Assembly (NCBI RefSeq): GCF_000620125.1
Contig: NZ_JHVL01000030.1
Span: 1 to 43,204 of the forward strand
Direction: 5' to 3'
DNA: 43,204 bases
Source: Clostridiisalibacter paucivorans DSM 22131
GTDB lineage: Bacteria; Bacillota; Clostridia; Tissierellales; Clostridiisalibacteraceae
This document shows, in pieces, positions 9,237 through 20,066 of this stretch (positions are counted from its first letter, which is position 1; each line of letters opens with the position of its first letter). The notes beneath the pieces were generated by a model. The model saw only the letters and a list, made by a program, of their open reading frames with translations, was not told where the DNA came from and made no database searches. Both the position numbers and the translations under genes were made by a program.

Positions 9237-9296
9237 TAATGTGTAAAATTATTAAAAACACCTGAGCTCAGGTGTTTTTAATAATTTTACACATTA
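9237..9296. terminator. Perfect 60-bp palindrome, bidirectional terminator
   Basis: Positions 9237-9266 are the exact reverse complement of 9267-9296, centred on gagctc. The GC-rich core cacctgag is flanked by A-runs on one side and T-runs on the other, so it can terminate both the lipoprotein gene and ychF, which converge here. The right arm includes the last sense codon and stop codon of ychF. Confidence 0.9.
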
Positions 9297-18356: not shown

Positions 18357-19091
18357 TTGGAACCAGTAGCTTTTGAAATATTTGGTATATCTATAAGGTG
18401 GTATGGTATATTAATATCCTTAGGTCTTTTATTAGGAGCTATACTAGCTATAAAAGAATGTAAAAGAATAGGGTTTAATGAAGAAAAATTAATAGATCTT
18501 TTATTATTTGCTGTACCTGCAGCAATAATAGGAGCCCGTTTATACTATGTAATATTTTCTTGGGAATATTATAGATGGGATTTTATGAAAATTATTAACA
18601 TAAGGGGTGGAGGATTGGCAATTCATGGAGGAATAATTGCCAGTGTATTGACTGCAATTATATTTTGTAAAATTAAAAAAATTGATTTCTGGTTAATTGC
18701 AGATATAACTGCACCTAGTATTATATTAGGTCAAGCTATAGGAAGATGGGGAAATTTTATAAATAAAGAGGCATATGGAACACCTACAGATCTGCCTTGG
18801 GCTATACTAGTAGATGGGCAAAGGGTTCATCCAACATTTTTGTATGAATCTTTATGGAATTTGTTGATTTTTTTCTTTTTGATTTGGTATAGAAAAAATA
18901 AAAAACAATTTAATGGAGAAGTATTTTTATTGTATTTATCTCTATATTCTGTGGGAAGGTTCTTTATAGAAGGTCTGAGGATAGACAGTCTAATGTTGGG
19001 ACCTCTTAGAGTGGCTCAAGTTATAAGCTTGATAATTATATTATTATCTACTGCTATTTTTATATATAAAAAAAGAGTTAAAAGTCTATAA
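18357..19091 (+). CDS. lgt: Prolipoprotein diacylglyceryl transferase
   Basis: This membrane enzyme moves the diacylglyceryl group of phosphatidylglycerol onto the lipobox Cys of prolipoproteins. It would act on PhnD, PstS, the YhcN-like protein and the 8274 product of this window. The 244-aa protein has about seven membrane segments and the Lgt signature GRWGNFINKEAYG. The catalytic-region motifs GGLAIHGG and HPTFLYES are also present, as is the SVGRFFIEGLR segment. The start is TTG at 18357, with AGGAGG 8 bases upstream. It probably forms its own unit before the Spo0E-like gene. Confidence 0.96.
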   Translation: MEPVAFEIFGISIRWYGILISLGLLLGAILAIKECKRIGFNEEKLIDLLLFAVPAAIIGARLYYVIFSWEYYRWDFMKIINIRGGGLAIHGGIIASVLTAIIFCKIKKIDFWLIADITAPSIILGQAIGRWGNFINKEAYGTPTDLPWAILVDGQRVHPTFLYESLWNLLIFFFLIWYRKNKKQFNGEVFLLYLSLYSVGRFFIEGLRIDSLMLGPLRVAQVISLIIILLSTAIFIYKKRVKSL

Positions 19092-19178
19092 ATGTAAAGG
19101 AAATTATAAAAAAAGAAGTATGCTAGAGAAATATGGTGTCAAATCTTAAAAAATACTGTAAAAGAAAAAAGTGGATAA

Positions 19179-19207
19179 TTGACTATTTTTGGATGATATA
19201 ATACAAT
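19179..19207 (+). promoter_or_regulatory. Sigma-A-type promoter of the Spo0E-like gene
   Basis: TTGACT (19179-19184), a 17-base spacer and TACAAT (19202-19207). An alternative TATAAT overlaps but at poor spacing. The start codon follows about 32 bases later. Confidence 0.6.
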
Positions 19208-19238: not shown

Positions 19239-19394
19239 ATGACATTAATGGACAAGATTGACGAATTAAGAGACAAGCTTAATAAGTCTATAGAGTGTGA
19301 AGACAATTTTGAGGAACTGTATGAATTAAGTAAGAGGCTTGATAAATTAATAGTATCTTATTATGCTAATAAAAATAATAAGATGTCAAGCTAA
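19239..19394 (+). CDS. Spo0E-like aspartyl-phosphate phosphatase
   Basis: A small gene of 51 codons. It starts at ATG 19239 with aggggaggt ending 8 bases upstream and ends TAA 19392-19394. The product is a short helical hairpin: MDKIDELRDKLNKSI, a turn, then LYELSKRLDKLIVSYY. The second helix matches the Spo0E-family signature centred on SQELD, here SKRLD, followed by the conserved KLIVxYY. Known members dephosphorylate Spo0A-P and delay sporulation. Bacillus Spo0E itself is longer, but 45-60-aa members are common. It has its own promoter and a strong terminator (19458). It lies between lgt and the mraZ operator; inverted MraZ boxes start 8 bases after its stop. Confidence 0.85.
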   Translation: MTLMDKIDELRDKLNKSIECEDNFEELYELSKRLDKLIVSYYANKNNKMSS

Positions 19395-19401
19395 AGAAAC
19401 T

Positions 19402-19419
19402 CCCCACTTTAAACCACTT
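19402..19419 (-). promoter_or_regulatory. Inverted pair of MraZ-type boxes
   Basis: The minus strand reads AAGTGG twice, 10 bp apart (complements of 19414-19419 and 19404-19409). The whole 18-bp stretch is the exact reverse complement of 19579-19596 in front of mraZ. It begins 8 bases after the Spo0E-like stop. Confidence 0.55.
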
Positions 19420-19457
19420 GTAAATTAGAAAAATTTTAATAGTAATTTTTTGTTTAT

Positions 19458-19513
19458 CAGACTAAATGCCTATTGTTTTTTAAAAATATAGGTATTTGGT
19501 CTGTATTTTTTTG
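19458..19513 (+). terminator. Terminator after the Spo0E-like gene
   Basis: 15-bp stem (19458-19472 with 19489-19503, two G-U pairs), 16-base loop, then tatttttttg. It isolates the dcw cluster from upstream transcription. Confidence 0.88.
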
Positions 19514-19578
19514 CAAAAAAAATTTTTTTATTATTTAAAGAAGGATTTTAGATTACCACTATAGAATAGGAATAATGT

Positions 19579-19604
19579 AAGTGGTTTAAAGTGGGGGAAA
19601 GTGG
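19579..19604 (+). promoter_or_regulatory. MraZ operator: three direct boxes before mraZ
   Basis: AAGTGG is repeated at 19579-19584, 19589-19594 and 19599-19604, exactly one per 10 bp. This equals the known MraZ operator design (GTGGG-type or AAAGTGK-type boxes at 10-bp steps). A further partial match, CAGTGG at 19619-19624, keeps the 10-bp phase with one position skipped and runs into the mraZ ribosome site. Autorepression of the dcw operon is inferred from the family. Confidence 0.8.
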
Positions 19605-19634
19605 TATAAAGACCATGTCAGTGGGGTGGGTTGT

Positions 19635-20066
19635 ATGTTTATTGGAGAGTATCAGCATTCTTTAGATACTAAGGGCAGAGTCATAATTCCATCTAAATTC
19701 AGAGATGAATTAGGGGATGTATTTGTTATGACTAAAGGACTAGATAACTGTCTTTTTGTTTATCCTATGGAAGAATGGAATATTTTACAAAACAAACTTA
19801 AGACTTTACCTCTTACTAAAAAAGATGCTAGGGCATTTGTTAGATTTTTCTTTTCTGGAGCTACTGAATGTCAATTAGATAAACAGGGAAGAATATTGGT
19901 ACCTTCAAATTTAAGGAAACATAGTGACATTACTAAAGAAGTGGTAATTATAGGTGTGTCAAACAGATTAGAATTATGGGATAGGGAAAGATGGGATGAA
20001 TATAATACAGATGCAGATTTGAATTATGAAAGTATCGCAGAAAAGATGGTGGAATTAGGAATATGA
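19635..20066 (+). CDS. mraZ: Transcriptional regulator MraZ
   Basis: The 143-aa protein is built from two AbrB/SpoVT-like halves, each with the DNA-contacting loop: [13 protein letters not shown] and [13 protein letters not shown]. It forms ring-shaped oligomers that bind repeated boxes before its own gene and control the dcw cluster. ATG 19635 is chosen because family members begin MFIGEYQHS; the frame is also open from GTG 19626. The ribosome site is G-rich (gtggggtggg) and may overlap a weak MraZ box. First gene of the division and murein cluster. Confidence 0.97.

Follow-up and report, generated by a model that had tools for sequence, protein, structure and literature searches.

A conserved complement of the mraZ operator beside a spo0E-like gene suggests 3'UTR to 5' end RNA pairing in Tissierellales

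In a small set of Tissierellales genomes, the MraZ operator in front of mraZ is matched by an inverted copy in the presumed 3'UTR of the neighbouring spo0E-like gene. The pattern of conservation indicates that the main constraint on this copy is probably complementarity between the 3'UTR of the spo0E-like mRNA and the very start of the mraZ (dcw) transcript. We regard as evenly balanced the further proposal that the spo0E-like 3'UTR pairs with the dcw mRNA at its 5' end and thereby couples sporulation control and division post-transcriptionally, in which case the MraZ operator would be both a protein site and an RNA target. Few gene groups in bacteria are as highly conserved as the dcw cluster. 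To our knowledge, MraZ is its main known dedicated regulator.

Results

The window, meaning the whole 43,204-nucleotide stretch of DNA that was analysed, is contig 22 of a 3.25-Mb genome (G000), the only one of its family (f1) among the genomes compared, in an order that includes Tissierella and Sporosalibacterium. Its gene order is lgt, a spo0E-like gene of 51 aa, mraZ, rsmH, an ftsL-like gene and pbp. The upstream neighbour lgt encodes prolipoprotein diacylglyceryl transferase (18357-19091, plus strand; Pfam PF01790, E 3.4e-84). The spo0E-like gene (19239-19394, plus strand) matches PF09388 (E 3.9e-9), and its product is a probable Spo0A~P phosphatase. mraZ, the first gene of the dcw cluster (19635-20066, plus strand), matches PF02381 (E 5.6e-48). 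The last two matches bear out gene calls that had been made from the letters of the sequence. The mraZ start is probably the conserved ATG at 19635 and not the GTG at 19626, because relatives start at the same MFIGEY ATG. A spo0E-like gene directly 5' of mraZ is a recurrent order in many sampled Tissierellales families, and it is also found in more distant Clostridia (L070, L083, L088).

Each of the two genes appears to have its own promoter. A sigma-A-like promoter for the spo0E-like gene, TTGACT-17-TACAAT (19179-19207, plus strand), was seen only by consensus scan (10 of 12 matches). TTGACA or TTGACT likewise stands upstream of the spo0E-like gene in L002, L012 and L014. A lone AAGTGG at 19169, before this promoter, has no partner and was taken as chance. 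Upstream of mraZ, the motif GAAGGATTTT ... TATAGAAT (19540-19567, plus strand) is conserved in 61 of 110 relatives, compared with 0.8% of shuffles. From the B. subtilis consensus we take it to be a sigma-H-type promoter, a feature that the earlier reading of this DNA did not include. Its presence suggests that dcw transcription is tied to the stationary-phase and sporulation sigma factor in this order. Transcription of mraZ would be expected to start about 8-10 nt past GAAT, near 19575, which would place the first operator box within the first few nucleotides of the mRNA.

The operator itself consists of three direct AAGTGG boxes in 10-bp steps, at 19579, 19589 and 19599 on the plus strand, as the sequence-only reading had described. 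MraZ operators in the dcw clusters of E. coli, Mollicutes and Burkholderia are tandem GTG-type boxes in 10-bp steps, which begin past the -10 box and span the mraZ transcription start (PMC8475190, PMC7761207). The boxes at 19579-19604 resemble these in their tandem arrangement, their 10-bp steps and their overlap with the expected start. Of 107 distinct leaders, 103 have the same kind of array just before mraZ, with at least three direct AAGTGG/GTG boxes spaced at 10 bp, when up to three mismatches are allowed. Across the leaders of about 100 relatives the GTGG cores recur in 10-bp steps and the middle box is AAGTGG in 96 of 103; the spacers vary freely. By its sequence, then, 19579-19604 is an ordinary MraZ operator. 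The weak fourth box noticed earlier is also present: CAGTGG at 19619-19624 (plus strand) lies in 10-bp phase with the others and overlaps the Shine-Dalgarno region, and at +40 seven of 103 relatives have AAGTGG.

Two further features of leaders and operators were observed. The mraZ leader often contains a short hairpin after box 3 and ahead of the Shine-Dalgarno sequence, as in L002, L011, L012 and L016 (where it reads GGAGGGTAATCCCTC), and in family f8 the 5' side of this hairpin shares bases with the arm complementary to the spo0E-like 3'UTR. L167 (G314) has a second GTGGTTTAAAGTGG away from mraZ, in an intergenic region beside a phosphoglycerate-mutase-like gene, which is a possible extra MraZ target.

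The exact 18-bp inverted two-box copy reported after the spo0E-like gene was found at 19402-19419. It reads CCCCACTTTAAACCACTT on the plus strand, carries AAGTGG at 19404 and 19414 on the minus strand, and is 100% complementary over 18 nt to 19579-19596 (plus strand), the leader arm, 159 nt away. Between the arms lies the intrinsic terminator of the spo0E-like gene (19458-19513, plus strand), also recognised in the earlier reading. Its stem at 19458-19503 folds at -22.2 kcal/mol (z -6.2) and is followed by the U run TATTTTTTT.

The two arms form the sole perfect inverted repeat of at least 15 nt with non-adjacent arms in the 43-kb window. When the 500 bp upstream of mraZ were subjected to 2000 dinucleotide shuffles, 16 bp was reached once and all other shuffles gave 13 bp or less. 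Exact AAGTGG-N4-AAGTGG occurs in the 3.25-Mb genome only at these sites and at one coding-region site. The exact match, its rarity in the genome and the shuffles rule out a simple chance origin. Two other accounts were also set aside. The copy is not a piece of a larger promoter duplication, as the likeness ends at the operator, and it probably does not mark a minus-strand promoter, as no conserved promoter was seen and the minus strand has no gene there. The other spo0E-like 3'UTRs of the genome hold no exact copy of the core 14-mer CCACTTTAAACCAC. A search of Rfam returned no family; its one match was at chance level (E 0.57), with 20.6 bits where the gathering score is 55.8.

Elsewhere in the window, 9237-9296 is a perfect 30+30-nt palindrome without a loop, possibly a bidirectional terminator. 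On contig C6 of the same genome, L111 132-479 encodes a small protein with a long GRPGYGP repeat run, which is collagen-like or spore-coat-like.

Comparison of the inverted pair among related genomes had been put forward as a check on the sequence-only reading. At about 100 mraZ loci, the DNA upstream of the operator was searched without bias for inverted repeats of it. The search detected 21 bp in L014, 19 bp in L012, 18 bp in L001 and, with one mismatch, 25 nt in L010; in about 95 other loci no repeat came close. In f8, another Tissierellales family, the copy is present in all four genomes compared (G007, G023, G037 and G041, the last as L129). These copies overturned the idea that the element is unique to G000, and the absence from relatives that would have counted against the earlier reading was not observed. 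In G000 and the four f8 genomes, the copy occupies the same site, within a few nucleotides of the end of the spo0E-like reading frame, with the terminator following it. In G007 (L010) several hundred bp have been inserted after the terminator and ahead of the mraZ promoter, yet both arms are retained. This insertion has small internal repeats, and the sister genome G023 is without it. Family f9 (G008, G024) has a decayed version, with GTGGTTTA and GGAAAGTGG as blocks of complement.

The core is strongly conserved within surroundings that cannot be aligned from one family to another. Among the five genomes, the 14-nt arm core is 93-100% identical, and the 40 nt past the arm are 33-50% identical between families and genera and at most 60% identical within a genus. 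The distances between the arms are 159, 196, 223, 262 and 579 bp. Across 249 genomes of the order, f1 and f8 are the only families in which a genome contains CCACTTTAAACCAC twice; in G041 a single copy is accompanied by a one-base variant. The 14-mer is rare in a class-wide sample, where most matches are the mraZ operator itself. A cultured carrier of the element is Thermohalobacter berrensis (L042), whose upstream sequence is the same as that of L014. The full element is known from five genomes only, three of them of one genus.

In a tree of MraZ and RsmH, G000, f8 and f9 fall among other families with the spo0E-mraZ order, and deep branches are poorly resolved. Family f18 is weakly placed as the sister of G000 (81/82 support) and is without the element, a position that makes losses or parallel gains necessary. 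One gain followed by losses and two gains at the same spot are both possible histories.

If the two arms are held together by RNA pairing, changes in one should be answered in the other. The arms of the five genomes were aligned without gaps, giving 24 pairs and 120 cells within helix limits set by the analyst. Standard pairs form in 95% of the 120 cells, a level matched by 0 of 500 shuffles. The covariation score was 0.246, compared with 0.117 in shuffled arms and at most 0.079 when the partner was slid by 1-3 columns. Two-sided changes occur in 6 of 24 pairs, a number equalled by 1 of 500 shuffles, a control that does not fully allow for the relatedness of the five genomes. These changes were supplied by G000, G037 and G041. 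They fall in the second spacer (U-A and A-U in f8, G-C in G000), in the first two bases of box 1 and in its 5' flank.

Duplex energies agree with a signal confined to the same families. Against shuffled 3'UTRs, the duplex of 3'UTR and leader scored z -2.8 in G000, -4.1 to -5.8 in f8 and -2.0 to -2.6 in f9. Scores lay near 0, like those of shuffles, in most other genomes with the spo0E-mraZ order (families f10, f11, f12, f16, f17, f18). In L070, L083 and L088, where the 3'UTR consists of the terminator only, the duplex is weak (z -1.7 to -2.4).

The sequence-only reading had interpreted the inverted pair as an opposed second MraZ operator. On a view of this kind, rings of MraZ would occupy both arrays with the 160-bp promoter region looped between them, or MraZ at the end of the spo0E-like gene would block its transcription. 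In support of this, G000 has two perfect boxes in the correct 10-bp step on the minus strand, and f9 keeps minus-strand GTGG boxes here, two of them in a 10-bp step. However, the third f9 box is 23 bp off and out of step, and the inverted array has two boxes only, the third being absent. The boxes are also altered. The second box of G041 is AAGCGG, a change that destroys the MraZ core and keeps the RNA pair as G-U, and a tally of the three main mraZ boxes over 103 leaders contained no AAGCGG. In f8 the first inverted box reads ACGTGG (G007, G023) or GTGTGG (G037), and also GAGTGG; the spacer of the inverted pair is TTTA in all five genomes. As for looping, four of the five inter-arm distances lie within about 3 bp of one helical phase, but they range from 159 to 579 bp and, as a set of five, show no significant phase.

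The spacers and flanks of the arms covary, although operator spacers are free in relatives. In addition, the copy always lies inside the presumed 3'UTR, a location that a protein site does not need. Since spacers and flanks covary and cores drift, MraZ binding would not be the main constraint on the inverted pair, and conservation does not point to an opposed operator with DNA looping. The pair is not an established second MraZ operator, because greater conservation of box cores than of spacers was looked for and was not found in the five genomes. We consider a second operator unlikely as the explanation, and MraZ may also bind the inverted pair in G000, where both boxes are perfect. The operators of PMC8475190 and PMC7761207 are without a described inverted second array; the inverted array here, in contrast, is conserved like an RNA complement.

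A functionless inverted duplication of the operator, its arms kept alike by template switching or gene conversion, is slightly harder to accept. The arms match beyond the protein boxes, and the match is best in mid-arm and frayed at the edges, as copying would give. However, such a duplication would need to have kept its place in different families as the surrounding 3'UTR was randomised, and to have survived the insertion of several hundred bp in G007. Copying also predicts identity and not an excess of G-U pairs; of the 13 non-Watson-Crick cells, 7 are G-U, a proportion that is suggestive only.

The arms could alternatively pair in cis, in transcripts that read through from lgt or spo0E into mraZ, so that a long stem around the terminator shields or processes the dcw part. 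This differs from pairing between separate transcripts only in being cis and not trans. The joint RNA fold, terminator included, reaches -68.3 kcal/mol (z -5.75 against shuffles). A strong terminator stands between the arms, though, so read-through should be minor, and stem and terminator do not compete. We judge an exclusively cis helix very improbable. Still more improbable is an invertible promoter, in which recombination between the 18-25 bp inverted repeats that flank promoter and terminator would flip the segment and cause phase variation: the orientation of terminator and promoter is the same in five of five assemblies, the segment can be as short as 159 bp or as long as 579 bp, and the dcw genes are expected to be essential.

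Discussion

The conservation described above argues for RNA complementarity between the two arms. One arm lies between the spo0E-like stop codon and the terminator, and the other follows the sigma-H-like promoter. Transcription of the spo0E-like gene would end at its own terminator, leaving the arm on the mRNA, and the mraZ mRNA would start at the operator. As the operator overlaps the transcription start, it would also form the first bases of that mRNA. The spo0E-like 3'UTR would then present an 18-nt perfect complement, or about 22 nt with wobbles, to the 5' end of the mraZ mRNA, and two separate transcripts of neighbouring genes could pair in trans. The earlier suggestion of a link between dcw control and the Spo0E-like gene gains support from an inverted pair that is conserved beside that gene.

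What would such pairing do? Pairing would take in about the first 20 nt of the mraZ mRNA, beginning at the predicted 5' end, and leave the promoter uncovered. Since it would stop ~38 nt short of the start codon, ribosomes should not be blocked. Indeed, the computed accessibility of the Shine-Dalgarno sequence and start codon changes from 0.36 to 0.43 in G000 when the arm is bound, and rises slightly in other genomes. A translation block is thus unlikely, as accessibility does not fall on arm binding. The most likely effect would be on mRNA lifetime, with the 5' end shielded from RNase J1 or RNase Y; cleavage by RNase III would be an alternative of opposite sign. We suggest that the element probably exerts an antisense-like control over the stability of the mraZ mRNA, and that its effect is more likely protective. 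Expression of a Spo0A~P phosphatase gene would in this way be coupled to a division operon that itself has a sigma-H-like promoter.

Known systems offer partial parallels. In the hbs mRNA of Bacillus subtilis, a 14-nt pairing between 3'UTR and 5'UTR protects the transcript from RNase Y (PMC7821165). Both cases involve a 3'UTR pairing with a 5'UTR in a Firmicute, but the two hbs UTRs belong to one mRNA, whereas here they come from two adjacent genes, each with a promoter and terminator of its own. In the icaR mRNA of Staphylococcus aureus, a UCCCC anti-Shine-Dalgarno motif in the 3'UTR pairs with the 5'UTR, blocks translation and leads to RNase III cleavage (PMC3868564). The spo0E-like arm likewise has UCCCC, a C-rich 3'UTR motif facing a G-rich leader. 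Unlike icaR, which pairs at the Shine-Dalgarno sequence within one mRNA, the pairing here would lie at the extreme 5' end, upstream of the Shine-Dalgarno sequence. A precedent for a target site at the very 5' end is the sRNA RoxS of B. subtilis, whose duplex with yflS mRNA stops RNase J1 (PMC5419742). RoxS is a free sRNA encoded elsewhere, while here a 3'UTR, that of the gene immediately upstream, would serve as the partner.

In kind, the element would be a variant of known 3'UTR-5'UTR or antisense pairing. In the literature searched, a conserved complement of this sort in the 3'UTR of a neighbouring gene is undescribed, and no work was found that ties MraZ, Spo0E and sigma-H together. If the proposal is correct, a 3'UTR would act on an adjacent, separately transcribed gene, as a variant of the icaR and hbs type, and an RNA layer would be added to dcw control. 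Two separate programmes, a sporulation regulator and cell division, would be joined at the RNA level, and in this clade of anaerobic Firmicutes the Spo0A phosphorelay would be tied to division by a direct genetic link.
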